NCBI RefSeq assembly: GCF_001625015.1
Contig: NZ_LVWJ02000014.1
Coordinates: forward strand, 2,790,001 to 2,854,000
Direction of reading: 5' to 3'
DNA from: Lewinella sp. 4G2
Lineage (GTDB): Bacteria; Bacteroidota; Bacteroidia; Chitinophagales; Saprospiraceae
DNA: 64,000 nucleotides
Part shown: positions 8,373 through 61,181 of the stretch, one piece after another
How positions within the stretch are numbered: position 1 is the stretch's first letter
Layout: every line of letters starts with the position of its first letter
Program-made: the position numbers and the translations under genes
Notes under the pieces: generated by a model
What the model saw: the letters and a program-made list of their open reading frames with translations, nothing else
Told to the model about the DNA's origin: nothing
Database searches by the model: none

Positions 8373-9257
8373 ATGCGTTTTACCCTTACTGCTTTTCTTG
8401 CCTTTTTCCTGTGCACCTGCGCCAGCGCCCAGGGATTTAGCGGTGGCTTCCGTGCCGGGCTGAACTTTGTTACCCTCTCCGGGCCAATCGAAGAGGATGC
8501 CGATGGCGGGCAATACGAACGCAGGAACCGAACGACCGGCTTTCACGTCGGCGCAACGTTTGCTTACGAAATTACCGACTTGTTCGGGTTAAAGGCCGAC
8601 TTACTGTACAGCCAAAAAGGAACCGAGATAGTGTACGACGACGTGCCTTCTTATTTCTACCTCTACACCGGCCCGGATGATTTGGACGGTGAGATCTTCT
8701 TCGGCCGCCGGACCAGCGACCAGGACGTGCTGAACAGCTACATCGACATCCCAATCACGGCTTACTACAAACTGGGTAAACTAGAGATTGAAGGTGGCGT
8801 TTCGGCCGGATTTCTCGTCGGGAGCCGGGTGAGTGGAGGCGTAACCTACCGCGAAACGAATCTGCCACGCTTCGGTGATGGAGAATATGAATTTACCATC
8901 GACGGCAACTACCTCAGTGATGAACCCGGCGGTGCATCCGTACAAAACCTGGGCTCCACTACCGTTCCCGGCCTCGCCGAGCCACTACCCGATCTGGTCG
9001 GCGCCTTCTATAATAGCAACAACGACACCCGCCTGTACAACCGCTTAGATTTTGGCCTGGTGGGCGGTTTGGCTTACTACCTTAATAATGGTCTCTACCT
9101 CGGCGCCCGCTACCAATTGGGCCTCACCGACGTTACCAAGGGCGAAAGTGACCGCCGCATCACCAACGTAGACCCCAACGTACCGGAGCGCACGTACAAC
9201 GAGGACGATAAAGATTACACCCGCTCCATGCAGGTCAGTATTGGTTTCCGCTTCTAA
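8373..9257 (+). CDS. Outer-membrane beta-barrel protein (PorT-like fold)
   Basis: 294 residues with a signal peptide ending TCASAQG. The rest looks like a PF13568-type barrel: GFRAGLNF near the start, FAYEITDLFGLKADLLYSQKG, DIPITAYYKLG, LVGGLAYYLNNGLYLGARYQLGL and a final strand ending in Phe (SIGFRF). Located in the outer membrane; cargo or partner unknown. A copy of the window's 17-bp dispersed motif falls inside the signal-peptide codons (8413-8429). Confidence 0.8.
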   Translation: MRFTLTAFLAFFLCTCASAQGFSGGFRAGLNFVTLSGPIEEDADGGQYERRNRTTGFHVGATFAYEITDLFGLKADLLYSQKGTEIVYDDVPSYFYLYTGPDDLDGEIFFGRRTSDQDVLNSYIDIPITAYYKLGKLEIEGGVSAGFLVGSRVSGGVTYRETNLPRFGDGEYEFTIDGNYLSDEPGGASVQNLGSTTVPGLAEPLPDLVGAFYNSNNDTRLYNRLDFGLVGGLAYYLNNGLYLGARYQLGLTDVTKGESDRRITNVDPNVPERTYNEDDKDYTRSMQVSIGFRF

Positions 9258-9346
9258 ATCTACGCCGCATTTCTACCTCAGCCCCCAACCAACCGTTACG
9301 CGAAGAACTCTTCGAAATCGATACCGCCCTACTTACGCAGCGGTGT

Positions 9347-9874
9347 GTGATTCGCCGCTTCCGCGAGCACGAAGGGGCGCAACTGTTTGATTTGGTCCGG
9401 GATAGCCAGGATTATTTGCACGAGCAGTACCCCGATCTTCCGCGGGCGGTAGGGGAGAATGCCAAGCAAGCGGAAGGCTTTGTACGCCGCCGCATCGCAG
9501 ACTGGTTACTCCAACAAAATTTTACGTTTGGGGTGTGGGATAACGAATCCACTGAACTCATCGGTTACCTGCAGGTGCGCGACGTAAACTGGTCCGTTCC
9601 CGCCGCCAGCCTCGACTTTTTCTTGCATCCCGCCCAAAAGGAAGGTGGGTACACCGTTGAGGTGCTCGCCCGAATGCTCCGTTTTGCTTTCCGGCAGTTA
9701 GGATTGGAAAAACTGAACTACTACGTGTTATCTGACAACTTTGCCGCCCAGCGGGCCGCTCGTAAAGTCGGCTTTAAGCGGGAAGGTGACCTCCGCAACC
9801 AATTTCGCAAGGGCAGCGGTTTCCTCGCCGATCTGATGTGCTTCGGCCTCAGCCGCGAGACTTACGGGGAGTAG
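9347..9874 (+). CDS. GNAT-family N-acetyltransferase
   Basis: Transfers an acetyl group from acetyl-CoA to an unknown acceptor; RimJ/RimL-like sequence (IRRFREHEGAQLFDLV, LGLEKLNYYVLSDNFAAQRAARKVGFKREGDL). GTG 9347 is the first canonical start, but it cuts the first beta-strand. The frame stays open back to the stop of the preceding gene and reads as plausible protein (LFEIDTALLTQRCVIRRF), so translation probably begins upstream, possibly at ATT 9269. The upstream barrel gene ends at 9257 and the next gene starts 50 bp after this one. Confidence 0.8.
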   Translation: MIRRFREHEGAQLFDLVRDSQDYLHEQYPDLPRAVGENAKQAEGFVRRRIADWLLQQNFTFGVWDNESTELIGYLQVRDVNWSVPAASLDFFLHPAQKEGGYTVEVLARMLRFAFRQLGLEKLNYYVLSDNFAAQRAARKVGFKREGDLRNQFRKGSGFLADLMCFGLSRETYGE

Positions 9875-9924
9875 GATTTCTCCTGCGCATTCAACTTTCT
9901 GACGGTCCAAATCCTTTGCGTGGC

Positions 9925-10494
9925 ATGCTCGCACACGTAGAAAATCGCCGTTCCATCTTCCCCCAATTTTTCACGGACCAGCCGGTTGCAGAAGCCACGC
10001 TGCGCACTTTGCTAGCGGCCGCCAACCTGGCCCCCAGCCACCGCAAAACCGAGCCGTGGCGCTTCCGGGTCTACCAGGGCACGGGAAAAGATCAGTTGCT
10101 CGACGAGTTGCGCACCGTGTACAATCAGGGCGCTGCCGCAGGTGCTTGGGGGGAGAAGCTAGAAAAAAAGTTTGGGAAAAAGCTGACGCAGAGCCCAGTC
10201 GTACTGGCCATCTTTCTACACCGGGACGAAGCGGAATCCGTCCCGGAATGGGAAGAAGTTGCCGCCGTGGGTTGTGCCGTAGAAAACCTGTGGACTAGCC
10301 TGGATGCCTTCGGTCTCGGTGGCTACTGGTCCAGCCCTGGATTCATGTGCGGCGGGTACGGAGAGTTCCCCGGGGCAGGGGAGCGGGAACGCTGCCTTGG
10401 GTTGTTCTACCTGGGCCATCACGCCGCACCGGATTTGCCGCGACCGCGAGGAAACTGGGAGGATAAGGTCACGTTTGTTGGCGCTCCCGCATAA
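9925..10494 (+). CDS. Nitroreductase-family FMN oxidoreductase
   Basis: NAD(P)H-dependent flavoprotein of the small nitroreductase group; substrate unknown. From ATG 9925 it has 189 residues. The N-terminal RRSIFPQFF is the usual FMN phosphate-binding start, followed by LLAAANLAPSHRKTEPWRF and, near residue 120, AVENLWTSLDAFGLGGYWSSP. An upstream in-frame ATG (9838) would overlap the acetyltransferase gene and adds nothing family-like. The codons at 10129-10145 contain an exact copy of the 17-bp dispersed motif. Confidence 0.85.
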   Translation: MLAHVENRRSIFPQFFTDQPVAEATLRTLLAAANLAPSHRKTEPWRFRVYQGTGKDQLLDELRTVYNQGAAAGAWGEKLEKKFGKKLTQSPVVLAIFLHRDEAESVPEWEEVAAVGCAVENLWTSLDAFGLGGYWSSPGFMCGGYGEFPGAGERERCLGLFYLGHHAAPDLPRPRGNWEDKVTFVGAPA

Positions 10495-10565
10495 GAAGGG
10501 CAAAATGTTTTAGCGCGGACAAAGCTCGATGGGGCGGACAACACCGAATACACCTTGTTAGCGGT

Positions 10566-13519: not shown

Positions 13520-13672
13520 CGGTAGACCCACTACGCCTTATCGTTACATCCGCCGTTGAGTTGAGTATTCACCTCAAGGACTTGACATTTTATGCCAGGT
13601 ATTTGGGCAAAACGATGTTCCTTTGCGGCAGACACGCCAGAACGCCCGTGTCCTCAATTGAAATACTGCCCC

Positions 13673-14581
13673 ATGCTGAGCCGCCGCAACGTCCGAATCA
13701 AAGTTATGCAAGTCCTCTACGCCGCCCAGCGGCAGGGGTTTAGCACGCCGAACGCCTACGTATCGCTGCTGAATAGTATGACGCGGAATACCTTCAAACT
13801 CTATCTGGAAAACCTGCTGATCTTCCAGCGGGTGTGTGAGTATGCTAAGCACGACTTCGCTACCCGCCAAGCAAAGTTGCGGCCGACCGAAGAAGACAAG
13901 TCATTCCGCCCGGTGTTGGCCGATAACCAGTGCGTGCAGTCGCTGTCGGATAACAATGACCTCAGCCAGATCTACGATCGTTACGGCGTCCGATCCATGA
14001 TCGATGCGGACCAGATCCAGAGCCTTTACCGCGAGTTTGGTAAGACGGATACACATCAGTCATTTCTCGAAATCCCCAACCCCAGCAACGAGGAAACTAA
14101 GACCTTGCTGTTGGCGCTGTACAAGTGGTTACAGAAGCAAGATCTATTCCTCAACATGGTGGAGGACCAGTTCCCACTTTGGAATGAAGACAAGAGCCTG
14201 GTGATCGGAGCCATGAAGAAGACAATTAAGTCCATGCCGGTGGACGCCAGCTTCTACCACGACTACGAATCCCCCAGCGAAGCCATTACCGACTTCGGCC
14301 GGCCACTCCTGCGCTTTGTCGTGGAGGCAGAGGAAACCTTACTGGAGAGAATCAAAACCGTCCTCCAAAACTGGGACGCGGACCGCGTTGCCATCGTCGA
14401 CATGATTCTCCTCAAAATGGCGGTAGGGGAGTTCACCCAATTTCCCGCCATCGCGCCCGAGGTGACCATCAATGAGTACATCGATATCTCCAAAGCGTAC
14501 AGTACCCCGAAGAGCCGGGAGTTCATTAATGGCGTGCTGGATAACCTGAAGAAGCAACTGGAGAAGGAAGGGCTGATTTAG
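13673..14581 (+). CDS. nusB: Transcription antitermination factor NusB, long Bacteroidota form
   Basis: Part of the antitermination complex (with NusE/S10) on rRNA transcripts. ATG 13673 gives 302 residues starting MLSRRNVRIKVMQVLYA, the standard NusB opening. The NusB helical core is at the C-terminus (about 190-300: LLERIKTVLQNWDADRVAIVDMILLKMAVGEF, PEVTINEYIDISKAYST, FINGVLDNL). The ~150-residue insert between the start and the core is typical of Bacteroidota. An upstream in-frame ATG at 13592 adds no family-like sequence. Confidence 0.9.
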   Translation: MLSRRNVRIKVMQVLYAAQRQGFSTPNAYVSLLNSMTRNTFKLYLENLLIFQRVCEYAKHDFATRQAKLRPTEEDKSFRPVLADNQCVQSLSDNNDLSQIYDRYGVRSMIDADQIQSLYREFGKTDTHQSFLEIPNPSNEETKTLLLALYKWLQKQDLFLNMVEDQFPLWNEDKSLVIGAMKKTIKSMPVDASFYHDYESPSEAITDFGRPLLRFVVEAEETLLERIKTVLQNWDADRVAIVDMILLKMAVGEFTQFPAIAPEVTINEYIDISKAYSTPKSREFINGVLDNLKKQLEKEGLI

Positions 14582-14622
14582 TCGGGTAGTCGGGTAGTAC
14601 GTACTACCTGACTACCCGACTA
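14579..14622. terminator. Near-perfect 22-bp inverted repeat between convergent genes
   Basis: Arms 14579-14600 and 14601-14622 match with one mismatch and no spacer. The sequence is built from 8-bp units (GTCGGGTA, then CTACCTGA, CTACCCGA, CTACGATA). It overlaps the nusB stop codon and ends 6 bp before the OmpA-protein stop, so it can end both transcripts. No long T run is present. Confidence 0.65.
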
Positions 14623-14627
14623 CGATA

Positions 14628-15659
14628 CTACAAAACTCTAATCTCCACTCTTCGATTCGCCCGCATCTCCCGCTCATCAACCGGGTTCGGATTCACCATT
14701 TCGTAATTCGAGTAGCTGCGGTAGCGCATGCGTTCTGGTTCAATCCCTCTTCCTACCAAGTAATTATAGACCACTTTGGCCCGGGCACCTGCGAGGGCGT
14801 GCAGTCGCGTACCCGGGAGCTGTGGCTCGCCCGGTTGGTTGACGTGGCCGGCCAGTTCTATCCTCGTGTCGGCGTTGTACTCCATGAAGTGATACAGCCT
14901 TTCTAAGGCGGTGGATCCTCCCGGTAGAAGTTTGGTCTTATTTCCTACGAAGTAGAGATTTTGGATGTCAATCCTGCGGCCGGTGGTTGCCAGCTTGAGG
15001 CGAACGTCGAAGGGTGGGGGAGGGCCGTCCGCCACGCTGAGTTTAATGTCCCTAGTCTCAATGAAGTGTCGCCGCGCAAAGACGTCCAACCGAATCGGGT
15101 CGTCGGCGGGCAGCCAGATGGCAAACTTCCCTTGATCATCCGCGGTAACCGTGTCTATGAGGTAAGTCCCGTGAGCAATGGCGCCACCGGGAATGGGATT
15201 GCCGACTTCGTCGCGAACGGTACCCGTCAGTTGAATGTAAGTCCGTGGCAAGCCCGACCGTAGGAGGACGCGGCGGTTCAATCGTTCTTTAGCCTGGGTG
15301 GGGACGGCTAATTTTCGTTCCCCAAAATACCGGAGTTCTACCTTATCCGCAGGCCAGCCGGCTTCGATCATGGCTGCGCGGGCGGCTTGGCACCGGGCTT
15401 CGGCCAACGCTTCATTGGCGGCGTCCGTCCCGACGGCATCGGTGTGGCCTTCGATGTACAGTTCCAGGTCTCCAGGCCGGTCGGCAACCATTTGGTGGAT
15501 CTTGGTCTTTGCGGTGGCATCTACGTCAGCGCCCGCGAAATCGAAATAGATGGTGTCGTTGCGGTGGACTTCTACGGAGTCTTTGACGCCGTTGGTCTGT
15601 GCAAAAACGCCGGAACTAGTAAAGAGTACCAACAAACTATACCGGCAAAATGATAGCAT
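14628..15659 (-). CDS. Two-domain OmpA-like protein with a central carboxypeptidase-regulatory-like domain
   Basis: 343 residues, signal peptide ending VFAQ (about 21). Residues ~30-135 form one OmpA-type peptidoglycan-binding domain (IYFDFAGADVDATAK, EGHTDAVGTDAANEALAEARCQA, RLNRRVLL). Residues ~140-225 look like a CarboxypepD_reg beta-sandwich (IQLTGTVRDEVGNPIPGGAI). Residues ~235-343 form a second OmpA domain (IELAGHVNQPG, ALAGARAKVVYNYLVGRGI, RANRRVEIRVL). In the second copy the usual GHTD is GHVN. Expected in the periplasm bound to peptidoglycan. The layout is unusual because the OmpA domains are at both ends. Confidence 0.8.
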   Translation of the reverse strand: MLSFCRYSLLVLFTSSGVFAQTNGVKDSVEVHRNDTIYFDFAGADVDATAKTKIHQMVADRPGDLELYIEGHTDAVGTDAANEALAEARCQAARAAMIEAGWPADKVELRYFGERKLAVPTQAKERLNRRVLLRSGLPRTYIQLTGTVRDEVGNPIPGGAIAHGTYLIDTVTADDQGKFAIWLPADDPIRLDVFARRHFIETRDIKLSVADGPPPPFDVRLKLATTGRRIDIQNLYFVGNKTKLLPGGSTALERLYHFMEYNADTRIELAGHVNQPGEPQLPGTRLHALAGARAKVVYNYLVGRGIEPERMRYRSYSNYEMVNPNPVDEREMRANRRVEIRVL

Positions 15660-22056: not shown

Positions 22057-23694
22057 CTATTTGTCGACCAGCGGCAATTTTTCTTGGCTATTCCAACAGT
22101 TTTTTGCCGTCAACCCACCTTTTCTAGCGGCTAACACACCGTACACGATGTCGTCAATCCCACCCATAGAGTGAGCGTCGGGGTTGATGCTGACGGGGAC
22201 GTCGCGCTCCGTAGCGTAGGGAATCCACCGCCAGTCCAGGTCGAGGCGGTAGGGGTTGGCGTTGAGTTCGATGGCGACGTTATGCTCTGCGCAGGCATCG
22301 ATGATGCGGGCGTGGTCAATAGGGTAGCCTTCCCGGCTCAGGAGCAGCCTTCCGGTGGGGTGGCCCAAGACCGTGGTGTGTGGATTTCGAATCGCAGTAA
22401 GGAGGCGTTCGGTGGCTTTCTCCTGGTCCATATTCAGGCCGCTGTGGATACTGGCGATCACGAGGTCAAACCCAGCCAGCACGTCGTCCGGATAGTCCAG
22501 GCTGCCGTCGCTGAGGATGTCGCTTTCGATGCTTTTGTAGATGCGGAAGGGCGCCAATTCAACGTTCAACGCATCGATCTCAGCCCATTGCTCACGGACA
22601 CGATCTTCCTTCAATCCACCGGCGTACACGGCCGTGCGGCTGTGGTCGGAGATCACCAGGTAGGCGTACCCTTTATCGCGGGCGGCCTCGGCCATCTGCC
22701 GGAGGCTGTGGATACCGTCGCTGTAAGTGGAGTGGGAGTGAACGACGCCGCGCACGTCGGTAGCTTCAATCAAGTCCGGAAGTTGGCCTGCGGCAGCGGT
22801 GTCTAACCAGGTGTCGTCTTCCCGTAATTCAGGTGGGATGAACTGCATGCCGACGGCCGCAAATACTTCCGCTTCCGTAGCCAATCCGGTGAAGTCTTTT
22901 CCGGGGTAGCGCTCCACGAAGGCCTGCAAAAATTCCGGGTTGCCCGTGTGTTTGAATTGCTTCGACCCAAAGTTTTCCGCAGTCACGTGGTGGAGTACGA
23001 AAGGGTAGCCATCCACCACGCCGGTGGTCTGGTTGTCTTTATGGATTAAGATGTCTACGCCTTCCAATTCGGGCGCTGCCGCGGGTGCGATGGTGGTGAC
23101 AAAGTCCATCCGCGTAAGGGTAGGGCAACAACGACGTAAGGCACCGGAACGCTCCGTGGTCGCTTCGGGGAAGAGACGGGTGAGTTCGGCAAGGAAAGCC
23201 TTTGCTGCCAAGTCGAGATCGCGGTACAAGAACTGCCCCCGGCTCCGCTGGTGAAACTCCAGCTTCTCGCGGAGGGTCTCCTGGGTCTTGGCTCCGAACC
23301 CCTTCAGCTCCACCAGCCGGTTTTCGTTGATGGCGTAGAGTAGCTGGCCGACGGTAGTTACCCCGAGCCCGTCCCAGACAGCCTTCACTTTTTTGGGTCC
23401 GAAACCGCGGATGTTGAGCATCTCCTGGATGCCGGCGGGAGTCTGGTCGCGCCACTTATTTAAGGTCGCCATTTCGCCGGTCGTGGCCAGTTCGTGGATC
23501 TTTCCCGCGATGGCTTTCCCGACGCCGTCCAGTTTCTGCAACTCTTCTTCCGACATGGATGCCAGCGGCCGGTCATCCTTCCGCAGCTTATTATAGGCGC
23601 TGGTATAGGAACGGATCTTGAACGGGTTATCCCCGTGCAACTCCATCAAGCGGGCGAGTTCACGGAAGTGGCGGGCAATGTCGGGGTTCGTCAT
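22057..23694 (-). CDS. polX: PolX-like protein: HhH, degenerate Pol-beta fold and PHP phosphoesterase domain
   Basis: 545 residues. The N-terminal helix-hairpin-helix region (about 1-145) contains DGVGKAIAGKI and IRGFGPKKVKAVW and should bind DNA. The Pol-beta-type domain (about 150-300) carries GALRRCCPTLTRMDF (184-198). The C-terminal PHP domain (about 313-535) keeps metal ligands His319 and His321 (HSHSTYSDG), Asp350/His351 (ISDHS) and a late NPDAH. In active PolX enzymes the polymerase motif is GS.RR..E...D.D; here Ser is Ala185, Glu is Pro191 and the first Asp is Arg195, so only the PHP 3'-5' exonuclease/phosphoesterase looks functional. Role in repair is inferred. Confidence 0.88.
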   Translation of the reverse strand: MTNPDIARHFRELARLMELHGDNPFKIRSYTSAYNKLRKDDRPLASMSEEELQKLDGVGKAIAGKIHELATTGEMATLNKWRDQTPAGIQEMLNIRGFGPKKVKAVWDGLGVTTVGQLLYAINENRLVELKGFGAKTQETLREKLEFHQRSRGQFLYRDLDLAAKAFLAELTRLFPEATTERSGALRRCCPTLTRMDFVTTIAPAAAPELEGVDILIHKDNQTTGVVDGYPFVLHHVTAENFGSKQFKHTGNPEFLQAFVERYPGKDFTGLATEAEVFAAVGMQFIPPELREDDTWLDTAAAGQLPDLIEATDVRGVVHSHSTYSDGIHSLRQMAEAARDKGYAYLVISDHSRTAVYAGGLKEDRVREQWAEIDALNVELAPFRIYKSIESDILSDGSLDYPDDVLAGFDLVIASIHSGLNMDQEKATERLLTAIRNPHTTVLGHPTGRLLLSREGYPIDHARIIDACAEHNVAIELNANPYRLDLDWRWIPYATERDVPVSINPDAHSMGGIDDIVYGVLAARKGGLTAKNCWNSQEKLPLVDK

Positions 23695-23808: not shown

Positions 23809-24957
23809 GTGATTCCGTCCTTACTGCTTGCCGTTGCCTTTATTCTGCTTGCCCTTTATCTCTGGCACCTGCGGCAGCGCCCCTACGCCGCCGTGCCCTT
23901 CTTGTTGGGAATAGGATTGCTGACCCTAACGATCACCATCAAGGTGCAGGATGAAAACCGGACGCTGGCGAAGCAGGACGTCGATACGCTGCTCGACCAC
24001 CTAAGTACGACGGACCTGTGGCGCATCAACGAGGTGGACCGGGCCGACGAAAGACTATTGCTGGCCAGCACCGCCAGCCAGGCACTCTTGCGGGCCAAAA
24101 CCTGGTACCCGGAGCGGGCGGGAGCCATTGATTCTACGCTGGCCGTACTGGCCTATTTTGCCGCTAGCCCCACGAACTTTCCGCAGTGGAAACGGCAGCG
24201 AAGTTGGGACGAACAGGTCTTCTTCCTCGCTCACGCCGGAGCGACCCTGGCGCACTACCAACTGGCGACGGGCAACGCCGGGCGCGCCAGCGAACTCGGC
24301 CGCATCGGTAATCATTTGGGGACGCGCCTCATCCGCAGCAAGTACAAACACCTACCCAGCCGGGCGGACGAACCCTTCTTCCGGCCAGCCGATAACGCTG
24401 CTGCCCTGTACACCCTCTCTCTCTACGAACGCATCGACAGCGCCGGCCTGCTGCTGCCGACCTATACGGACTGGAGCGCCTACCTGACGGACGAATTGTA
24501 CTACGAAGAATCGCGGCTCCCCTGCGCTGCATTTAGCACGACGAATACCTGCCAACTAGAGCCAAGTGCTGCTGCCACGGGCCTGTACATCGCCTACCGC
24601 GCCGCCGCCCGCGAGGAGGTAGAAACGGATATTCCCTACCGCGAGTGGCTCCACTATTTTAAAGGGGGCATCAGCACGCCATTCACGTTGAGCATCCGCC
24701 AGGATATGCGGCAGGATGAACAGACCCGCTTCTGCGGTTTAGGGTCCAAACCACTTAAGTGCGGTCGCTACGAATCCGCCGTCGCGCTCTGGGCCAGCGC
24801 GGAATACGACGGCGACTACGCTTACTTCCGCCTCTTCGCCGGCCGCCTCCTCGGTCGCTGGCTTAATGAACGGCCGGACTACGCCGCCATGAGCCCCGCC
24901 AAACGCGTGGAGGCTTTGCAAGGGGTAGCCTTCTGGGCCTTGGGGGAAGGATTGTAG
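23809..24957 (+). CDS. Membrane-anchored protein of unknown function
   Basis: 382 residues from GTG 23809. Two hydrophobic segments lie at the N-terminus (about 2-21, IPSLLLAVAFILLALYLWH, and 29-47, AVPFLLGIGLLTLTITIKV); the remaining ~330 residues are soluble and mostly helical, with no recognised motif and with many Arg, Ala and aromatic residues. Four cysteines lie in the C-terminal half (LPCAAFSTTNTCQLE, RFCGLGSKPLKCG). Codons 23865-23881 contain an exact copy of the 17-bp dispersed motif (LRQRP region). It converges on the PQQ dehydrogenase gene with 36 bp between stops. Confidence 0.7.
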   Translation: MIPSLLLAVAFILLALYLWHLRQRPYAAVPFLLGIGLLTLTITIKVQDENRTLAKQDVDTLLDHLSTTDLWRINEVDRADERLLLASTASQALLRAKTWYPERAGAIDSTLAVLAYFAASPTNFPQWKRQRSWDEQVFFLAHAGATLAHYQLATGNAGRASELGRIGNHLGTRLIRSKYKHLPSRADEPFFRPADNAAALYTLSLYERIDSAGLLLPTYTDWSAYLTDELYYEESRLPCAAFSTTNTCQLEPSAAATGLYIAYRAAAREEVETDIPYREWLHYFKGGISTPFTLSIRQDMRQDEQTRFCGLGSKPLKCGRYESAVALWASAEYDGDYAYFRLFAGRLLGRWLNERPDYAAMSPAKRVEALQGVAFWALGEGL

Positions 24958-27201: not shown

Positions 27202-27352
27202 GATCGTAAAATAGGGTTTACGGATGCAACGACGTTCGGATGCTAGCCTTCCACCTTGGCACCTGCGGCAGCGCCCTCTGATTAGAAAAGAATGGATCTA
27301 ATCCTGACTCGGTCTCTGCGCACATATTTGAACGTTTTCAACCAGTAGTAAT
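27202..27352. other. Short intergenic region with an exact 17-bp motif copy
   Basis: Between the PQQ dehydrogenase start and the beta-helix stop. It holds GCACCTGCGGCAGCGCC at 27259-27275, outside any gene. The 20 bases at 27257-27276 match those in the coding sequence near 23863. Confidence 0.6.
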
Positions 27353-29542: not shown

Positions 29543-29566
29543 AGCGAGTAGGTTAGTCGATCGCAC

Positions 29567-29770
29567 CGCTGCTGCTTACAAGGCAGTAGGGCGCCGCCGC
29601 AGGTGCGGAGCGCAGTGGCAAGTAATCAGGACCGGTCGATCAGTGGGCGTGCAAACCCAGGGTGTGAATGTGTATGCGGGGAAATAGTCCAGTACCCAAG
29701 TAAGGAGAGATAGGCATTTTTGTTGACGGCAAAAGCCAAAAACTAGGGACAAGTTGTTACACCACGCTCG
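29567..29770. other. Intergenic region with a 17-bp motif copy
   Basis: No gene seen. A one-mismatch copy of the dispersed motif (GGCGCCGCCGCAGGTGC, 29590-29606) sits in a GC-rich palindrome (29591-29613). Confidence 0.5.
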
Positions 29771-29905: not shown

Positions 29906-29972
29906 GGTTGAAAGGTAAGGGGAATAACAGATTCGGTCTCGCAACTTTAGCCCCGCTTCAAATTGATTAGAG

Positions 29973-34414: not shown

Positions 34415-34540
34415 AGGGTCTAAGTCAATTATTCAAGCTTTCGGACAAAGTCAATCCGAATCGTCACTGCTCACCTTCGTGATGAATCAGGGCGCTGCCG
34501 CGGGTGCCCGGAAATAGGCAAGTAAAAAGAACCTGCCCTC

Positions 34541-36652
34541 TCACCGAATGACGAAACGACTACTCATAACTCGCCCGTCCGTCATTCGTAACACGATGGC
34601 GTAAGGACCGGGGCGGTACTGATGACCGGTGAGAGAAATGACCAATCTATCTGATGCCGGCTCCTTTATCGTAGTCACCTTTCTGCCAGCCAGGGTAAAG
34701 ATCTCCGCTGAAGCGACACGGCGTGTATCTAGGTCCACTGTTAGTTGGTCCTTAACCGGATTCGGGTAGAGTTTGATCCCTGCCTGAGCGAAGGTGGAAA
34801 CCGCAGTCAGGTCATCAATGACAAAAGTCTCCTCGTAGGTGCAGTCGTTGGCGTCCGTTATTGTCACGGTGTATTCCCCGAAGTTGAGGTCCGTCCGGAT
34901 CGAGTCCGTCAGCGTGGTATCGGACCAGGCGTAGCGGTAGGGTGGGGTGGCGCCTTCCACCGTCAGGGTAATGGTGCCACCGTCGCGCAGACGGGCGGGG
35001 GTGGTTGCGCTGGTGACCGTGAAGTCGGAGTCGGGCCCGGTGATCGTAAAGGTCACCCGTACGGCATTGCCGGACATATCCCTAAAGAAGATTGCCTTTT
35101 CGCCGACCGTCAAATTAGTTACGGACTGTTCGCCAGCCGTCCCCTCCGCTTCGGTACTGCCGCCGGATACGTTGAACGTAGCCGTTCCGTCGTTCCCCCC
35201 AAAACATGACACCGGCGTCAGCGCCACAATAGTCGCGACGAGCGGGCGCTGAGTACGTAGGGAATATAACTCGTGGCCGATCTCGCCGTCGTCGGCAAAG
35301 AAGTAGAGCAGCTTGTCGACGGATAGGAAGTGGGTAGGGAAACTGCTGCCGCCACCCCGATTAACGTTGGAGACGAGCACGGTGCCCGCTACGGTCCCGT
35401 CGGAAACGTACAGCTCGGTGCCGGTAGAATTGCCATTGTTATCTAGGCCCCGCGCCGCGAAGTAAAGCTGCCCCTCATGCTCGTGGAATAAACTGCTGGG
35501 GACAATGCCACTCTCCGCGCCGGGTATGAGGTCTTTCACCTGGGTCGTCCCCAACTGAGAGCCATTCGTCCGCCACAGTTCGACGCCACCGGTAGGCGTA
35601 GCATCTGCGTAGTAAACGAAGTCGCCGACAGTCGTGAAGTGTTGGGGCGCGTACCCACCGTTACCGATTTCTGGCAGGTTCTCAATGATGCGCGTACCCT
35701 GCGGGGAGCCGTCGCTGACGTACACGTCCGCGCCCCCGTTGATGTCGGCGGCGAAGATGAAGCGGTCGCCAATGAATGCGTAGCGATCGTCATCGGAATC
35801 GGTCTCGATGTTCATGCCGGGACCATTGAAGTCAAAAATGAGCGTAGGGCGGGCGTTATCCGGGCCAAGTTTGTAGAGGTCGTAGCTCGTCAGCCGCGTG
35901 AGGGCACCAAAGTAGGCGGTGTCCTTGTGGACGACCATGCTTTCTAACGTGATGCCATTCGCGCCGCGGAAGTTGGATACCCGGACGGTCCCGTCTTCCG
36001 TACCGTCCGTCCGCCAGATCTGTCGGTTATCGATGCCACTCTCGGCGGTGAAATAGGTGACATTATCGCCGGTGTGAAAGTCACGTGGCAGGCTACCCCG
36101 GGTGTTGTTGCCCAGTACCTCGATGTCCTTTAGTAAGTAGGTGCCCTCCAACGTGCCGTCACTCCGCCAGAGTTCCGTTTCCGCGATGCTGTTTCGAGCC
36201 GCGAAGAGCAGGGTGTCCTGCGCGAAACCGAAGGTCCGGTCCGGGTCTTCCAGCAAGCCAGATGCGGGGCCGGTGAATATGTCCGCCACGATGCGGGTGC
36301 CGCGGGTAGTGCCGTCCGTCCGGTAAAGTTCCGTTCCGAAGCGTGGGGTCGTGGCGGCGAAGAAGACCTGATCGCCGACTTTAGTAAATCCGTGAGGCTC
36401 GCTGCCGTCCTCTCCGGGGACGATATCCGAGAGTAAGCGGGTGCCGGCCGGCGTACCGTCGCTGATCCAAATCTCCGTGCCCGTAGCGTCGTTACTGGCC
36501 GGGAAAATGAGCCTGCCGTTGAGGACGACGCCACGCTCTTCGGCGAGCGAACTGGAGCGGCCGGGGTTGATGTCCAGCACCAATTCCGGTGGCAACTGGG
36601 CACCGAGGGGAAGGCCCACCAATAGGAGGCCCAAAAACAACTGAAATCTCAT
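34541..36652 (-). CDS. ELWxxDGT-repeat T9SS-secreted protein
   Basis: 703 residues: signal peptide (to LPLGAQ), then about ten repeats of the ELWRSDGTxxGT type (ELYRTDGTTRGTRIV, ELWRSDGTLEGTYLLKDI, ELWRTNGSQLGTTQVKDL), likely a beta-propeller. A SprB-like segment follows (SCFGGNDGTATFNVSGGSTEAEG, DANDCTYEE). The C-terminal ~75 residues are a T9SS type A signal (LYPNPVKDQLTVDL). Secreted or surface-located; partner unknown. Single gene with no visible terminator. Confidence 0.85.
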   Translation of the reverse strand: MRFQLFLGLLLVGLPLGAQLPPELVLDINPGRSSSLAEERGVVLNGRLIFPASNDATGTEIWISDGTPAGTRLLSDIVPGEDGSEPHGFTKVGDQVFFAATTPRFGTELYRTDGTTRGTRIVADIFTGPASGLLEDPDRTFGFAQDTLLFAARNSIAETELWRSDGTLEGTYLLKDIEVLGNNTRGSLPRDFHTGDNVTYFTAESGIDNRQIWRTDGTEDGTVRVSNFRGANGITLESMVVHKDTAYFGALTRLTSYDLYKLGPDNARPTLIFDFNGPGMNIETDSDDDRYAFIGDRFIFAADINGGADVYVSDGSPQGTRIIENLPEIGNGGYAPQHFTTVGDFVYYADATPTGGVELWRTNGSQLGTTQVKDLIPGAESGIVPSSLFHEHEGQLYFAARGLDNNGNSTGTELYVSDGTVAGTVLVSNVNRGGGSSFPTHFLSVDKLLYFFADDGEIGHELYSLRTQRPLVATIVALTPVSCFGGNDGTATFNVSGGSTEAEGTAGEQSVTNLTVGEKAIFFRDMSGNAVRVTFTITGPDSDFTVTSATTPARLRDGGTITLTVEGATPPYRYAWSDTTLTDSIRTDLNFGEYTVTITDANDCTYEETFVIDDLTAVSTFAQAGIKLYPNPVKDQLTVDLDTRRVASAEIFTLAGRKVTTIKEPASDRLVISLTGHQYRPGPYAIVLRMTDGRVMSSRFVIR

Positions 36653-41300: not shown

Positions 41301-42827
41301 ATGCTGCTCACTCAACTCGTTCATCGCTTACAAGACCTCTCGGCCGTCATCGCCGGCGAGCCGGGTGTAAGTGACCGGGAAGTGAGCAGCGTGGTTTTTG
41401 ACTCCCGCCAAGTGCAGCCGGGCAGCCTCTTCGTCGCCGTCAAGGGTACGCAGGTGGACGGCCACGACTACATCGGCAAGGCCATCGATCGGGGTGCCAT
41501 CGCCATTGTGGGCGCTGACGCAGGTGCCATGCAAAAGGGACTTAAAGAACAGAAAGAAACCAAGGACGGTACCTCCAACGAAGTGACCTTCATCACCGTG
41601 GAGGACTCCGCCAAAGCGCTCGCGCTCGCCGCCGCCGAATTCTACGGCAACCCCAGCCAGGACCTCACCCTGATTGGAGTGACCGGCACCAACGGCAAGA
41701 CGACCGTCACCACCTTACTCCACGACCTCTTCACGGATCTGGGTTACAAAGCCGGACTCCTTTCCACCGTTGAGGTACGGATTGGGACGGAGGTCAAGAC
41801 CGCCACCCACACTACGCCGGACGCCGTGGCCATCAACGCCAACCTCGCCGAGATGCTGGACGCGGGGTGTACTTACGTTTTCATGGAGGTCTCCAGCCAC
41901 GCCGTTGACCAGCAGCGGACGGTCGGCCTTGCGTTTGACGGAGGGGCGTTCACCAACCTCAGCCACGACCATCTTGATTACCACGAGACCTTCCGGGCCT
42001 ACCTGGAAGCCAAAAAAGCCTTCTTCGACGGGCTCCCCAAAACCGCTTTCGCCCTCAGTAATGCGGACGATAAGAACGGACCGGTGATGCTCCAGAATAC
42101 CCGGGCGACCAAACGCTTCTACAGCCTCCGTAAGGTGGTGGATTACCGGGCGCGTCTGCTCACGGATTCTCCGCAGGGGTTGCAACTCGAGTTGGACGGT
42201 ACTGAAATATTCACCCGTCTACTTGGTCGGTACAACGCTTACAACCTCACTGCCGTATTCGGTATCGCCATGGAGTTGGGGATGAACCGGGAGGAAACCC
42301 TCGTCTCCCTTAGCAACCTCACCGCCCCCAATGGCCGGATGGAGAACGTCGTTGATCCCACCGGTCAGGTGACGGCCATCGTTGACTACGCCCATACGCC
42401 GGATGCGTTGCAGAATATCCTTGAAACCCTTGCCGCCGTCCGCCAGCCCGGCGCCCAACTCATTTGTGTGGTGGGGGCCGGTGGTGATCGGGATAAGTCC
42501 AAACGCCCGGAGATGGCGCGCATCGCGGCCCAACTATCCGATCGGGTGATCCTCACTTCGGATAACCCACGAACGGAATCGGCGGAATCGATCCTGGACG
42601 ATATGTCCGCTGGACTCATCAGCCCGGCATCCCGCGCCAGCGCCCTGAGAATCACGGACCGCCGGAGTGCCATTCAGACCGCCGTGCAGTTCGCGCGGGC
42701 CGGAGACATTGTACTCGTAGCTGGAAAAGGACACGAAACTTACCAGGATATCCAGGGTGTAAAACACCCTTTCGACGATAAGGTAGAACTGACGAACGCT
42801 TTAAACCTCCGCCTCCATGCTAGTTAA
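41301..42827 (+). CDS. murE: UDP-MurNAc-tripeptide synthetase, meso-DAP type
   Basis: Adds the third residue of the stem peptide. 508 residues. ATP site GTNGKTT (about 128-134). DNPR (421-424) in [12 protein letters not shown] is the motif for meso-diaminopimelate as substrate. Codons 41511-41527 contain a copy of the dispersed 17-bp motif (VGADAGAM). Its last 11 bp overlap mraY. An 85-bp gap follows ftsI. Confidence 0.95.
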
Positions 42828-46623: not shown

Positions 46624-47740
46624 GGAAATCAAAAAACCATTGCGGGTGATCGTCAGCGGCGGTGGAACGGGAGGACACATCTTTCCGGCCATTGCCATTG
46701 CGGACGAATTGAAAAGACTTGTCCCCCGAGCAGAATTTCTCTTCGTTGGTGCGGAGGGTAAAATGGAAATGGAGAAGGTGCCGAAGGCGGGCTACAAAAT
46801 TGTGGGCTTACCCATCCGTGGCTTACAACGCCATAACAAATTAGCCAACCTGTCTTTTCCGTTCCGCTTGATTTCTTCTCTGATCAAAAGTAGAAGCACC
46901 ATTAAAAACTTCAAGCCCGATATCGTAATTGGAACCGGTGGCTACGCCGGTGGGCCAGTGCTATACGCCGCTGCCAAAATGGGTGTGCCCACTTTGATCC
47001 AGGAGCCCAATGCATTCGCCGGCCTGGCCAATAAATGGTTGGGTAAGCACGTCGATAAAATCTGCGTCGCTTTCCCCAAAATGGAGAAATACTTTCCCAA
47101 AGAAAAGCTGGTAGAAACGGGCAATCCTGTCCGGGAATCCATGCTCGAAAAAGCTGCTGACCTAGCCGCGAAAAAACCGGCTGCCACCAGTCAATTTTCC
47201 GTCTTACTGATGGGTGGTTCCGGTGGTGCAAAATCCATGAACGAAGCTTTGCGTGATAATACCGAAGCCATTCGGGCGCGGCCGCAGGTGCAATGGAAAT
47301 GGCAATGTGGCAAGCATTACTACGAGGATTTTTCCTCCTGCGAAACAGCCCGGCTGGATAACGTAAGTATCTCCGCCTTTATCGATAAAATGGATGACGC
47401 TTACGCCACCGCCGACTTGGTGATTGGCCGCGCGGGTTCTACCACCATCGCTGAAATTCAATATCTCGGAAAACCAACCATCCTGGTTCCGAGCCCCTGG
47501 GTGGCCGAAGACCACCAAACCATGAACGCCAAAGCATTGACTGAAAATGATGCAGCCGTTCTCGTTGCCGATAAAGATCTGCAGTTAGATCTTATCCCGA
47601 CCGTTTTTGAATTAGCCGACAATCCTGCGCGTCGGGAGCAACTTTCCAGTAAAGCACGGGAAATGGCGCAGCTTGGTGCCGTCACCCGGATCGCTGAAGA
47701 GGCGCTGGCGCTGATCAACTTAAAAACCGCAGAGTCATGA
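46613..47740 (+). CDS. murG: Undecaprenyl-PP-MurNAc-pentapeptide GlcNAc transferase
   Basis: Converts lipid I to lipid II at the membrane face. 375 residues from ATG 46613. N-terminal SGGGTGGHIFPAIAIADEL and C-terminal GRAGSTTIAEIQYLGKPTILVPSPWVAEDHQ are signatures. A one-mismatch copy of the 17-bp dispersed motif lies in codons 47275-47291. The start is chosen inside the ftsW tail (11-bp overlap); a frame opening at 46559 would overlap ftsW much more. Stop overlaps murC by 4 bp. Confidence 0.95.
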   Translation: MLPKEIKKPLRVIVSGGGTGGHIFPAIAIADELKRLVPRAEFLFVGAEGKMEMEKVPKAGYKIVGLPIRGLQRHNKLANLSFPFRLISSLIKSRSTIKNFKPDIVIGTGGYAGGPVLYAAAKMGVPTLIQEPNAFAGLANKWLGKHVDKICVAFPKMEKYFPKEKLVETGNPVRESMLEKAADLAAKKPAATSQFSVLLMGGSGGAKSMNEALRDNTEAIRARPQVQWKWQCGKHYYEDFSSCETARLDNVSISAFIDKMDDAYATADLVIGRAGSTTIAEIQYLGKPTILVPSPWVAEDHQTMNAKALTENDAAVLVADKDLQLDLIPTVFELADNPARREQLSSKAREMAQLGAVTRIAEEALALINLKTAES

Positions 47741-51601: not shown

Positions 51602-51816
51602 TCGTCCGCTAATGTCCGGCAGCTGTACGTTTCCTACGTATTCACCTACCGGACATTGCACCCGCGGCAGCGCAAAAACAACTTAATTTATACCATATAA
51701 AAATTTGGGTGAGAGAATTGACCATTTCACCCAAGCCCGCAGTAATACTCTCTAGCCAGTTTCAAAAAAGGTGTGAAAACGGTGAGGACCGAGCCCGCGG
51801 GCACAAAACCTGAATT
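51602..51816. other. ftsA-ftsZ spacer with a hairpin and a 17-bp motif copy
   Basis: 215 bp. AATGTCCGG (51611-51619) pairs with CCGGACATT (51649-51657), enclosing a 29-nt loop. The next base begins a two-mismatch copy of the dispersed motif (51658-51674). An ATAAAAATTTG stretch (51697-51707) also occurs before mraZ (37114-37124). No gene was seen; a promoter for ftsZ is possible. Confidence 0.5.
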
Positions 51817-57374: not shown

Positions 57375-58977
57375 CCTTGGCCACCTTCTTTTTGCGGGGT
57401 TTACGTGGCCCCTTGCGGCTTCCGTGTTTGGCGAATACCTTTTCGGTGATCTCGCGTCCGCCGGGCTGAAATTTGAGGTCACCAATGATTTTGCGGTAAG
57501 CCTTTACACGTTCGGTGCGGTCGACCACTGCCGGCGGGTACTCCCCTAAGCCAACCGTTAGGTCGCGTTTGGCAATTTCTTTGGCCGTGTAATCACGGAG
57601 TTCGGGGATCCACCGGTGCACAAATTCGGCGTCGGGGTCGTGGTCGGTAAATTGCTTTTCGGGGCTGTACGTGCGGAGGGTATTAATCCCTACCATGCCA
57701 GCCTGCATTTGCAGTTGGGCGAGGTGGATACCGGGTTCGTAATCCGTGTAGAGCTGGGCCATTGGTTTGTCGATCCTCCGGAAGTCCAGGTGGAGCATGT
57801 GGGCGGCGGTGCTCGTCAGCATGGCGCGCATTCGGAAATTGATGTAGCCCGTCACGGCCATGCAGCGGATGCAGGCATCGACCATCACGAAACCGGTGCG
57901 GCCGGTGATCCAGGCTTGGAAAAGTTCGTCGCTGTTCTCTAGTTGGAGGTCCCAGAAATTGGGGTTGAGTGGCCGGTGCTCCATCTCCACCTCCGTTTCC
58001 AGGCGCTGGCTGAAGTGGTCGCGCCAGTGCAGGCGGCTGAGGAAGGAGCGGAGGTTTTTGCGCCACGTCCCCGCATTCTCCAAGTCGCTGTCCTTTAGGG
58101 ATTCGTAGTAAGTCTGCGTCCGTTGGTAGACGGTCCGCCCGGAGATCGTTCCCCAGGCCAGATGGACACTCAGTCGGCTACAGCGGTAGAAGGCGGTATT
58201 GGGGCTGGACATCCCCTTAGAGTAGTCCAGCGCTCGCTCCCGGTGAAAACTTCGGAGGGTGGTCTCCGCGCTCTGTTCCGATACCGGTTGCACGTACTGA
58301 CGTTGCACCTGCGACAGCGCAAAATTGAAGTGCTCGGGTACGAGTGGCCCGTCGTGCGCATCCCCAAACAGTTCAACTTTGGGCATCCATTTATCAACTG
58401 GTAAGGTCTGAGTTAATTTTTGCGTCTTGACGGGCGCCGGAAGGGCAAGTAATAATTTGTACTCATCCAGAATTTTCACGTTTTGAAGATCTGGAATTGG
58501 GAGCAGTTCACCACGGTAGAATTGCTCCCAGTCCTTATGCCGCTTATCCCGATCTACGGGGCCGCGTAAGACGCCCGTTTGCTGGTGTTCCTCCCAAGTG
58601 ACGCCCCTTTCTTGGCACCATTTACTGACGGCCTTATCGCGATCATAGGTCCGATTATTGCCCGTTTCGAAGTGGCTGACGAGGGCCGTAAACGGCTTGG
58701 CTGCGTAGAGTAGATCGAGCGTTTCAATAACTTCCCGATGGCTAAAACCCAACTGCGCTTCACCATTTTGGCGCTCACGCAGGTGCCGGGTTAAGCCGTT
58801 AAACGCGTCGCACTGGGCGTGGACGTGGAAGACACTCGTTTCGGCCGCCACCAACGCGGAGGGTTCAAGAATGAAGAGGGGAGTGACCGTGTCGTAGCCA
58901 GAAATGGCCGCGGTAAGTGCAGGATTATCCGCCAGGCGGAAGTCGCGTTTGAGCCAGTAAATTGCGTGAGTTGCCAT
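57358..58977 (-). CDS. Cryptochrome/photolyase family protein
   Basis: Flavoprotein that repairs UV dimers or senses blue light. 539 residues from ATG 58977 (MATHAIYWLKRDFRLADNPAL). The N-terminal alpha/beta domain and the C-terminal FAD-binding helical domain are visible (SRLHWRDHFSQRL, HRPLNPNFWDL, TGFVMVDACIRCMAVTGYINFRMRAML, DYEPGIHLAQLQMQAG). The C-terminus is lysine-rich (GSRKGPRKPRKKKVAKATA). Whether it repairs DNA cannot be told from sequence alone. Two copies of the 17-bp motif lie in its codons (58305-58321, 58770-58786). An in-frame start at 59037 is unlikely. Confidence 0.88.
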   Translation of the reverse strand: MATHAIYWLKRDFRLADNPALTAAISGYDTVTPLFILEPSALVAAETSVFHVHAQCDAFNGLTRHLRERQNGEAQLGFSHREVIETLDLLYAAKPFTALVSHFETGNNRTYDRDKAVSKWCQERGVTWEEHQQTGVLRGPVDRDKRHKDWEQFYRGELLPIPDLQNVKILDEYKLLLALPAPVKTQKLTQTLPVDKWMPKVELFGDAHDGPLVPEHFNFALSQVQRQYVQPVSEQSAETTLRSFHRERALDYSKGMSSPNTAFYRCSRLSVHLAWGTISGRTVYQRTQTYYESLKDSDLENAGTWRKNLRSFLSRLHWRDHFSQRLETEVEMEHRPLNPNFWDLQLENSDELFQAWITGRTGFVMVDACIRCMAVTGYINFRMRAMLTSTAAHMLHLDFRRIDKPMAQLYTDYEPGIHLAQLQMQAGMVGINTLRTYSPEKQFTDHDPDAEFVHRWIPELRDYTAKEIAKRDLTVGLGEYPPAVVDRTERVKAYRKIIGDLKFQPGGREITEKVFAKHGSRKGPRKPRKKKVAKATATS

Positions 58978-59076
58978 GCTATTGAAAGCGCGGCCAGCCG
59001 CCGGGTGTTCTGTTTTGGCGTGACAGGGCGGCGTCAACAGGACGTTGCCGTCACTTTAATGCCAGAGCTATTCGAT

Positions 59077-60009: not shown

Positions 60010-60034
60010 GGGGTGGGTTATTGGTAGGGTAAAG

Positions 60035-60559
60035 TTACGCCTCGCCACTCTGCTGTCCTCGTTCAAAAGCGATGACGTCGGCCAGCGACTGTTCGTGGAA
60101 CTTAACACTGAGGCCGTCGGGGAGGCGTAACCGAAGGTCGGGATTGATGGATTTATTGAGCCCTTTCCGGTCGATGTACGTAGCAGGAAACCCAAGGTGA
60201 TCGGTCAGACGCCATTCGAAATCAGCGAGGGGAGTATCGATTACAAACTCCACGTGCTCGTACCCGGAAGGGTAGGCGCTACCTGGTTTGGGGGCGGGCA
60301 ATTCCAGGACCTCGATTGAGCGCCCGCGAAAGGTAATGGGATCCGAAAGCCGAAAGACGGCAATCGGTCGGCCGCCGATTTGACTCTCCGTCAGCAACTC
60401 ATTCTCTAATAGCAATGCGTCGCGTAACGCAACGTATTCCTCCCAATCACCGACGCGATAACAGAGGTGGTCGAGCTCGAATCCGTCGAATTGTCCGGGT
60501 ACTTTTTCGAGGGCAGCGAACAGTTGGGTGAGGAAATTTTGCGGGTCGGGGAGGGACAT
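60035..60559 (-). CDS. YecM/VOC-fold protein
   Basis: 174 residues from ATG 60559 (MSLPDPQNFLTQLFAALEKV). Sequence resembles YecM-type members of the vicinal-oxygen-chelate fold (GFELDHLCYRVGDWEEYVALRDALL, GRPIAVFRL, VEVLELPAPKPG-like segment, YEHVEFVIDTPL). Function unknown; may bind a metal. ATG 60577 is also in frame, but the promoter below would put the transcript start within a few bases of it, so 60559 seems better. It diverges from the LOG gene. Confidence 0.75.
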   Translation of the reverse strand: MSLPDPQNFLTQLFAALEKVPGQFDGFELDHLCYRVGDWEEYVALRDALLLENELLTESQIGGRPIAVFRLSDPITFRGRSIEVLELPAPKPGSAYPSGYEHVEFVIDTPLADFEWRLTDHLGFPATYIDRKGLNKSINPDLRLRLPDGLSVKFHEQSLADVIAFERGQQSGEA

Positions 60560-60585
60560 ATTGGGCGGGGCGTTCATCTTTACGG

Positions 60586-60614
60586 CAAATCTACACCGTA
60601 TGTCCCAACGCAAA
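60586..60614 (-). promoter_or_regulatory. Promoter of the YecM-like gene, inside the start of the LOG gene
   Basis: On the minus strand TTTG (60614-60611), 17-bp spacer, TAGATTTG (60593-60586): a full Bacteroidota promoter. The -33 box lies within codons 4-5 of the divergent LOG gene (ATG 60600). Confidence 0.6.
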
Positions 60615-61181
60615 TCCATCGCCATCTTTTGTGGTTCCTCTTCCGGAAGTGACCCCGCCTACGTCGCCGCCGCTCACGAGATGGGGCGGGCCATCGCCGA
60701 GCGGGGCTACCGGTTGGTGTACGGCGCCGGCTCCGTCGGCCTTATGGGCGAAGTCGCCGACGAAGTGCTACGGCAGGGTGGGGAAGTGCTGGGTGTGATC
60801 CCCCAATTCCTCGTCGATATGGAAGTCGGCCACGATGGTCTGACGGAACTCATCGTCACCGAAACCATGCACGAACGCAAACTCGCCATGGCCGAGGCCG
60901 CCGACGGTTTCATCGCCATGCCCGGCGGGGTAGGGACGCTCGAAGAGATCATCGAGGTACTCACCTGGACGCAGCTGGGCGTCCACGATAAACAGTGCGG
61001 CCTGTACGACGTGAAGGGCTACTACGACCACCTTGTCCGCTTCCTCGAACACGCCGTAGACCAGCGTTTTCTCAAGGCCAGTCAGGCCGCCTTACTCCAC
61101 CGGGGCGCTGACGCAGGTGCGTTGCTGGAGACGGTTTTAGAGAGTGGTGGGGTTGTTTATGAGGGGAAGTGGGTTGGGTAG
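60600..61181 (+). CDS. LOG-family nucleotide phosphoribohydrolase (TIGR00730)
   Basis: Members split a purine base from nucleoside monophosphates (cytokinin-activating 'lonely guy' type). 193 residues, Rossmann fold: SIAIFCGSSSGSDPAYVAAA, GRAIAERGYRLVYGAGSVGLMG, and MPGGVGTLEEI (about 106-116), the PGGxGTxxE motif. Codons 61104-61120 carry a motif copy (RGADAGAL). ATG 60600 is only 22 bp from ATG 60577 of the divergent gene. An earlier in-frame start (60528) lies inside the neighbour. Confidence 0.92.
   Translation: MSQRKSIAIFCGSSSGSDPAYVAAAHEMGRAIAERGYRLVYGAGSVGLMGEVADEVLRQGGEVLGVIPQFLVDMEVGHDGLTELIVTETMHERKLAMAEAADGFIAMPGGVGTLEEIIEVLTWTQLGVHDKQCGLYDVKGYYDHLVRFLEHAVDQRFLKASQAALLHRGADAGALLETVLESGGVVYEGKWVG

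Follow-up and report, generated by a model that had tools for sequence, protein, structure and literature searches.

DNA uptake signals are described as the DNA uptake sequences (DUS) of Neisseriaceae and the uptake signal sequences (USS) of Pasteurellaceae, and the passages of PMC12616744 on this subject state that they are known only in these two families. Common features of DUS and USS are over-representation on both strands, copies inside and outside genes, even spacing, genes of the ComEC, DprA and ComEA types, and a type IV pilus machine with the secretin PilQ and the PilB/PilT ATPases. Here, we analyzed a 17-bp motif dispersed in a 64,000-nucleotide stretch of the Lewinella sp. 4G2 chromosome (the window; positions 2790001-2854000 of a 4.17-Mb contig in a genome of 5.21 Mb). 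All the features listed above are found with this motif except the pilus machine. The MraY protein of this genome shares 86% identity with its counterpart in Neolewinella antarctica, and the host of the motif is a Neolewinella-like member of the Saprospirales. Below, G000 denotes the genome of the window, and G001 to G020 denote 20 other members of the genus.

We consider that the motif probably forms the core of a DNA uptake signal spread over the whole genome and working like DUS and USS. With somewhat less assurance, we favor the view that it belongs to a third, independently evolved uptake-signal system, about 45 bp in length, read by a receptor other than a type IV pilin and respelled within one genus, in the extreme case almost completely. 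The open-licence literature yielded no description of a comparable signal for Lewinella, Saprospirales or Bacteroidota, subscription papers and preprints lying outside this scope.

Abundance of the motif

A sequence-only reading of the window had listed 12 copies of the motif and judged that far less than one was to be expected by chance. A rescan reproduced all 12 coordinates and mismatch counts and found 15 matches with up to three mismatches, compared with a mean of 0.37 (standard deviation, 0.66; maximum, 3) in 100 dinucleotide shuffles. The list had overlooked one site with a single mismatch, at 23072, and the rescan added two marginal ones, at 15517 and 35209. The genome-wide count that the same reading had suggested gave 861 sites when up to one mismatch was allowed, with 428 on one strand and 433 on the other, versus 0 for the same pattern read backwards (the reversed control). 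The signal occurs about once per 3.5-6 kb and is a genuine repeat, present far more often than chance would allow.

Placement and structure were analyzed in a 464-kb sample, consisting of the window and 20 stretches of 20 kb from the main contig (21 stretches in total). In this sample, the degenerate core GGCGCTGNCGCRGGTGC was found with 0, 1 and 2 mismatches at 95, 29 and 9 sites, respectively (133 sites), as opposed to 0, 0 and 6 for the reversed control, which outnumbers the degenerate core from 3 mismatches on.

It is scarcely credible that the repeats reflect ordinary composition or a repeated peptide. The motif is GC rich, and several in-frame copies spell GADAGA or APAAAP; the copies in murE and, with the frame taken from the coordinates, in the LOG-family open reading frame (ORF) 60528-61181 do code for GADAGA, as had been noted from the sequence. 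Nevertheless, the shuffles and the reversed control rule out a composition artefact, and a peptide is ruled out by the use of both strands equally and of all three frames, and by the one third of the sites (45 of 133) lying outside ORFs.

A directional element of about 45 bp

A logo of the 123 sites with at most two mismatches in the 464-kb sample gave the core GGCGCTG[C/a]CGC[A/g]GGTGC, in which 8 of the 17 positions are 100% conserved and 5 further ones 97-99%. Upstream, the preference is weak (A 46% at -4, T 43% at -3, T 49% at -2, T 41% at -1, and G 67% at position 0). The extension AATCAGGG reported earlier for several copies is just part of this weak upstream preference, and the larger conserved extension, absent from the earlier reading, is downstream. 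The latter has G at +21 (86%), A at +24 (64%), and G at +27 and +28 (65-67%), with T depleted to about +40. It forms a one-sided tail of about 23 bp, which includes NRRGNAARRGG and whose purine richness also reaches about +40: across the 133 sites, the purine share is 70% between +18 and +40, drops to 55% in the stretch that follows and is 48% upstream. The tail and the logo profile therefore define a directional element of about 45 bp, composed of 4 T/A-rich bp, then GGGCGCTGNCGCRGGTGC, and then about 23 purine-rich bp. Conservation fades gradually beyond the core, with no sharp end.

This anatomy, a strong core with weaker, one-sided downstream segments at high copy number, resembles that of USS (passages of PMC1626085 and PMC12616744). 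The sequence and the phylum are different, the core is 17-18 bp long rather than 9 nt, and the tail is purine-rich whereas that of USS is AT-rich.

Placement, orientation and spacing

ORFs in the 464-kb sample were called with a greedy longest-ORF script rather than a gene caller. They cover 89% of the sample, yet only 87 of the 133 sites lie fully within them (P = 4e-13), with 1 across an edge and 45 wholly outside, an approximately threefold enrichment outside ORFs. The 87 sites comprise 40 in sense and 47 in antisense orientation to the gene, and all three frames are used in each orientation. On the contig, 67 sites are on the plus and 66 on the minus strand, and both strands are represented in each of the 21 stretches; the genome scan shows, among the matches listed, long runs of plus-strand sites on contig 14, the contig sample itself being balanced. 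An orientation signal, one of three possibilities raised by the sequence-only reading, is ruled out by the equality of the strands in the genome and along the main contig and finds no support in the near equality relative to genes.

Sites are more evenly spaced than expected. The coefficient of variation of the spacing is 0.74, compared with 0.92 +/- 0.07 in simulations (observed value at the 0.25 percentile), and the number of sites per 20 kb is likewise under-dispersed (ratio of variance to mean, 0.37; P = 0.006).

The strongest rival to an uptake signal starts from these observations. The motif may be bound inside the cell by an abundant protein that organizes or repairs the chromosome, such as a nucleoid-associated protein, an SMC-type loader or a recombination factor, with the species-specific spellings described below tracking a co-evolving DNA-binding domain. 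Even spacing and the presence of sites on both strands, in and between genes, would fit an architectural role. The known uptake sequences are themselves evenly spaced, which Karlin et al. are reported to have interpreted as pointing to a function in replication, repair or compaction (passages of PMC1939737), and a bipartite motif would suit a two-domain binder.

KOPS, Chi and matS are likewise short signals repeated along the chromosome, and they are shorter and/or polarized or regional. The orientation bias along the replichore that is typical of KOPS and Chi was not found over the 21 main-contig stretches, and the spelling of the motif, unlike theirs, turns over within one genus. Furthermore, without a drive it is difficult to see how selection could have acted separately on each of about a thousand sites of 17 bp, many of them in conserved enzymes, and the inverted pairs with short loops in G011 (see below) are arranged as in DUS and USS (passages of PMC3630211 and PMC12616744). 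On balance, we consider a chromosome-organizing protein unlikely. The earlier suggestion of a protein-binding site is right in the broad sense, and of the three possibilities raised an uptake signal fits best.

Inverted close pairs are a known habit of both DUS and USS (passages of PMC3630211 and PMC12616744). When both copies were required to have at most 3 mismatches and to lie within 60 bp of each other, 3 pairs were found in G011, compared with 0.24 expected (P = 0.0005), and the loops of two of these measure 7-8 bp. In G000, 4 pairs were found, compared with 1.1 expected (P = 0.03). In a looser count, which allowed the partner up to 6 mismatches and used the reversed control for comparison, a clear excess was found only in G011 (14 vs 0), G012 (17 vs 4) and G007 (4 vs 0). 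There was little excess in G006 (19/14), G017 (7/6), G009 (17/15), G005 (6/5), G002 (3/2) and G001 (0/0).

Substitution or insertion

The earlier reading also proposed a small mobile element. A MITE- or REP-like repeat (miniature inverted-repeat transposable element or repetitive extragenic palindrome) multiplied by copying would account for the very strong consensus, which is typical of copied elements. On the other hand, the motif has no defined ends, identity drops fast beyond the core, and most copies are inside ORFs, where every frame is used. We compared sites with orthologous positions in the relatives, in a test of 50 query rows that represent 38 distinct sites, some being present in 2-3 frames and others counted twice through paired records of a single species, as is the case for two species. 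Most rows had only 1-5 comparators, and 948 comparisons were obtained.

At least 5 unmatched query residues at the site were found in 126 of the 948 comparisons, and 121 of these came from a single MurE loop, represented by three rows: 53 of 80 for the gene of the window, and 34 of 79 for ANT-68/G008, a row present twice. Outside this loop, only 5 of 710 comparisons had a gap of insertion size, two in a long linker gap and three in single subjects. MurG, queried from six species, had no more than 2 unmatched residues in 413 of 413 comparisons. In the first version of the test, the site was absent in 72 of 106 comparisons, 15 of these being gapped; in the second, it was absent in 849, with gaps of any size in 417, largely owing to gaps of 1-2 residues in MurG and to the MurE loop. 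The MurE loop is ambiguous as to insertion, because its length varies and its flanks are gapped as well. Perhaps the loop represents repeated gain in one permissive spot. Sites or site-like words are present in the murE loop (41509-41530) in G000, ANT-68 and N. antarctica, and nearby in G005 and G006.

For 8 of the 15 window sites, an alignment with N. antarctica was obtained. Near-matches are present there at 47275, 23072, 41511, 51658 and 23865, with small gaps in the flanks at all but 47275. At 10129, N. antarctica lacks the site without any gap. The marginal site at 15517 also aligns gap-free, and a separate near-match is present in N. antarctica at a distance of about 12 nt, as counted by eye. 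This OmpA-family gene, with a weak site in the window and a better near-match about 12 nt off in N. antarctica (L401), gives the impression that a lost signal was gained again close by.

Copying of a mobile repeat appears disfavored at most sites compared, and we regard it as a very improbable origin of the motif. A similar orthologue test showed that USS are not insertions (passages of PMC1626085), and the distribution of USS types by subclade is a further likeness between the systems, as would be the origin of USS coding copies by substitution (passages of PMC1626085 and PMC12616744). A viral source was also considered and set aside: the exact 17-mer occurs in at least 120 viral-contig stretches and, among the 80 matches listed, there is one match each with no clustering, a scan that carries no information on Neolewinella phages.

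Dialects within the genus

The 17-mer with at most one mismatch is present in at least 150 copies in 8 of the 20 other genus members (G002, G003, G005, G006, G008, G010, G014 and G018), in 75 copies in G019 and in 0-27 copies in the remaining 11. None of the 19 genomes examined from outside the genus has more than 1 copy. With the relaxed pattern GGGCG-N3-7-CGCAGGT, 149 genomes of the order were scanned; four genus members have 234-814 copies (510 in G000), and the other 145 have at most 11 each, the reversed control there reaching 19. These 145 sampled genomes outside the genus are near the control level.

Within the genus, the motif occurs in dialects of a bipartite form, GGGCG-N-CGCRGGTGC. 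The dialect is GGGCGGCGGAGCGCAGGTAA in G001, GGGCGCCGGAGCGCRGGTGC in G007, GGGCGGGG-CGCRGGTGC in G009, G012 and G017, and GGGCGCGG-CGCRGGTGC in G002, G005, G006, G014 and G019, the last having mostly G at the A/G position. The calls for G004, G013, G015, G016 and G020 are weaker and come from small samples. Dialect sampling covered 3 kb for G003 and 9 kb for G008, and G010 and G018 were judged by 17-mer count only. De novo k-mer searches in 30-80 kb defined no motif by themselves in G004, G009 and G020 to G023.

The turnover is most extreme in G011, in which the usual pattern was not found in 145 kb. This species carries an AT-rich, nearly unrelated motif, TTTTG[GA]CT..CAAAGTAGCA, so that the change would run from GGGCG..CGCRGGTGC to TTTTG.CT..CAAAGTAGCA. 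Its core is present in 510 copies in G011 (238/272 by strand) and in at most 1 copy in each of the 20 others, with at most 2 in the control. Compared visually, the right half of this motif and CGCAGGTGCAATG agree at 9 of 13 positions, which is no more than suggestive of a diverged form of the same signal.

We compared the dialects with an MraY tree (IQ-TREE) of 19 of the 21 genus genomes, Lewinella sp. W8, ANT-68 and 3 outgroups. G001 and G007 form a fully supported pair, as do G000 and G019. The GGG-spelling species G009, G012 and G017 group together with G004 (94/90), and G011 stands alone on a long branch. The dialects follow phylogeny, on small samples, in the supported pairs and the GGG-spelling group, but not in the CGG-spelling group.

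DUS also occur as dialects of one signal and with copies inside and outside genes, and they form inverted pairs (passages of PMC3630211). However, DUS are continuous and up to about 13 nt long (passages of PMC12616744), whereas the motif of Neolewinella is bipartite with a spacer of 4-6, and one of its species, G011, has a nearly unrelated spelling.

Other repeats were seen in these relatives. Three stretches of G017 (L052, L055 and L056) contain elements made of GTCGTCGGCCGAC and GCTCGTCCGCCGAC words, which constitute a second dispersed repeat family there, and positions 3600-5400 of L038 in G001 contain repeats with GCCTGGAGCTGGAGCTCCAGGACCCTGTGCGGGGTGGAGGAGCTC, several of them spaced by 93 bp.

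Competence genes and the case for uptake

Genes of the kinds used for DNA import are present throughout the genus. ComEC (PF03772) was found in all 19 of the genus members searched, DprA (PF02481) in 18 and an HHH_3 domain, as in ComEA-like proteins, in 18; the genome without a match among the 19 is 55% complete. The ComEA-like proteins of four species were examined and all four match HHH_3, with no link to the dialect shown among these species.

On the basis of these genes and of the genomic pattern, we propose the following mechanism. A surface DNA receptor of the competent cell would prefer DNA that bears the signal of its own species. Fragments with the signal would be imported via the ComEA-like protein and ComEC, DprA would protect the imported DNA, and recombination into the chromosome would follow. 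Alleles nearer to the preferred sequence would thereby spread by biased gene conversion, i.e., molecular drive, which would build sites by point mutation where protein and RNA constraints allow. Molecular drive through biased uptake and recombination has been argued for the known uptake sequences (passages of PMC1939737). We propose that the excess of sites outside ORFs arises because the signal accumulates where constraint is low, the even spacing because about one site is carried per imported fragment, and the dialects because sites are rewritten together when the preference of the receptor changes.

Several observations weigh against this proposal. We found no report of competence in Neolewinella in the open-licence literature, and ComEC, DprA and HHH_3 proteins are also present in most relatives that lack the motif; because of their presence outside the genus, they do not explain its distribution. 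The core is longer than those of DUS and USS, and the spacer is 4, 5 or 6, mixed within several species, e.g., G013, which would be unusual for one rigid receptor. The CGG-spelling species are not one clade in the MraY tree, since G019 pairs with G000, and G006 is unplaced, with several forks lacking resolution. In the looser count of inverted pairs, the reversed control is higher than the motif in G000 (26 vs 49) and G019 (8 vs 15). The large gaps in the MurE loop count on the same side, and even spacing and dialects could also be produced with an abundant intracellular DNA-binding protein.

The pilus machine is a further point of this kind. Our search for it covered the secretin and PF00437 and did not include pilins or PilC. 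No secretin (PF00263) was found in any of the 19 genus members, whereas 6 of 14 control genomes have a match. No full-length pilus ATPase (PF00437) was found in the genus either, only partial matches of 19-25 bits: 10 of 19 genomes are barely over the cut-off, with about 84 of 370 positions aligned in frames of 943-984 amino acids, and G000 is below it. By comparison, the true PF00437 ATPases of G029 and G034, which have a pilus machine, score 410-423 bits, and Escherichia coli matches in both controls.

Because neither a secretin nor a full-length pilus ATPase was found in the genus, the putative receptor is probably not a pilin exposed through a PilQ secretin. This sets the motif apart from DUS, whose receptor is the minor pilin ComP and whose machine was not found here, and from USS as well. 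We therefore do not file it as a member of DUS or USS, as the pilus machine that these share was not found and the uptake role is one that we infer. In Porphyromonas gingivalis, ComEA and ComEC are essential for competence and a type IV pilus-like conjugation pilus is not involved (passages of PMC11532111); competence without a type IV pilus is thus on record in Bacteroidota. Another member of this phylum, Riemerella columbina, is naturally competent and prefers its own DNA in competition. It belongs to Flavobacteriaceae, its top k-mers are A-rich and up to 10 bp long, and the passages of PMC7965970 that describe it establish no signal.

The lack of the usual uptake machine among the proteins searched could also be taken to favor a function other than competence, in which the motif would be the self-mark of a defense or restriction-like system, or the signal for another route of DNA transfer such as vesicles or gene transfer agents. 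Any mechanism that favors marked DNA would give the same genomic pattern. The ComEC, DprA and ComEA-like genes offer a simpler route, and we know of no defense or transfer system with a long, asymmetric, bipartite mark. We regard such a function as improbable.

Altogether, the high count, the positional pattern of even spacing and enrichment outside ORFs, and the differences between species are contrary to the outcome that the sequence-only reading had named as a refutation, a low count with no pattern and no differences between strains. If the motif is an uptake signal, it provides a third case, in another phylum and where the pilus machine was not found, which would mean that sexual isolation by DNA marks evolves repeatedly. 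A sequence-specific DNA receptor of a new kind could then be sought, and the signal could help to explain the preference for self-DNA in another member of the phylum (passages of PMC7965970). The approximately 20 species with graded dialects form a natural series for locating the receptor by co-variation, and the series also allows one to test how a signal repeated about a thousandfold changes its spelling.

Sites and minor observations in the window

Eleven of the 15 sites in the window lie in ORFs, and four lie between them. Three of the latter are at 27259..27275 (minus strand, exact), between ORFs 24994-27201 and 27353-29566; at 29590..29606 (plus, 1 mismatch), between ORFs (29566/30000); and at 34491..34507 (plus, 1 mismatch, A to G at degenerate position 12), between ORFs 33814-34365 and 34541-36652, with AATCAGGG upstream. 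The fourth, at 51658..51674 (minus, 2 mismatches), is between ORFs 50177-51601 and 51817-53295, and its near-match in N. antarctica is the one with flank gaps mentioned above.

Sense copies include the exact site at 10129..10145 (plus), in nitroreductase-family ORF 9838-10494, where it codes for QGAAAGAW and is missing from the N. antarctica orthologue, and the site at 58305..58321 (minus, 2 mismatches), in the photolyase ORF 57358-59037 (minus). The same photolyase ORF carries an antisense copy at 58770..58786 (plus, 2 mismatches). Other antisense copies are at 8413..8429 (minus, 1 mismatch), in ORF 8373-9257 (plus; outer-membrane beta-barrel), a copy that is identical in N. antarctica (17/17); at 23072..23088 (plus, 1 mismatch), the site overlooked at first, in ORF 22057-23694 (minus; HHH/PHP, polymerase-X-like), where the N. 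antarctica near-match is at the same place; and at 23865..23881 (minus, exact), in ORF 23809-24957 (plus; no Pfam match).

The murE site is at 41511..41527 (plus, 1 mismatch at degenerate position 8), in the loop of variable length, and the LOG-family site is at 61104..61120 (plus, 1 mismatch at the same degenerate position). The site in murG, at 47275..47291 (plus, 1 mismatch), codes for RARPQVQW, and the same alignment column is a site in several other species. The two marginal sites, each with 3 mismatches, are at 15517..15533 (minus), in ORF 14628-15659 (minus; OmpA family), and at 35209..35225 (minus), in ORF 34541-36652 (SprB repeat/Por secretion tail).

No Rfam covariance model matched the window at the gathering threshold. 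A terminator scan of L398 found 31 candidates, compared with 19.6 in shuffles, and was not used as evidence. The window also contains short arrays of the AGTCTATAGTC/ACTACAGACTATAGAC type at 3700-3740 and 29773-29997, and a 400-kb sample of this genome is strongly enriched in words related to them (AGTCTGTAGT, 26 vs 0.17 expected). At 14579-14622, at the end of ORF 13592-14581, there is an abutting inverted repeat, TAGTCGGGTAGTCGGGTAGTAC/GTACTACCTGACTACCCGACTA, with 95% complementarity; TAGTCGGGTAGT is likewise enriched in the genome sample.

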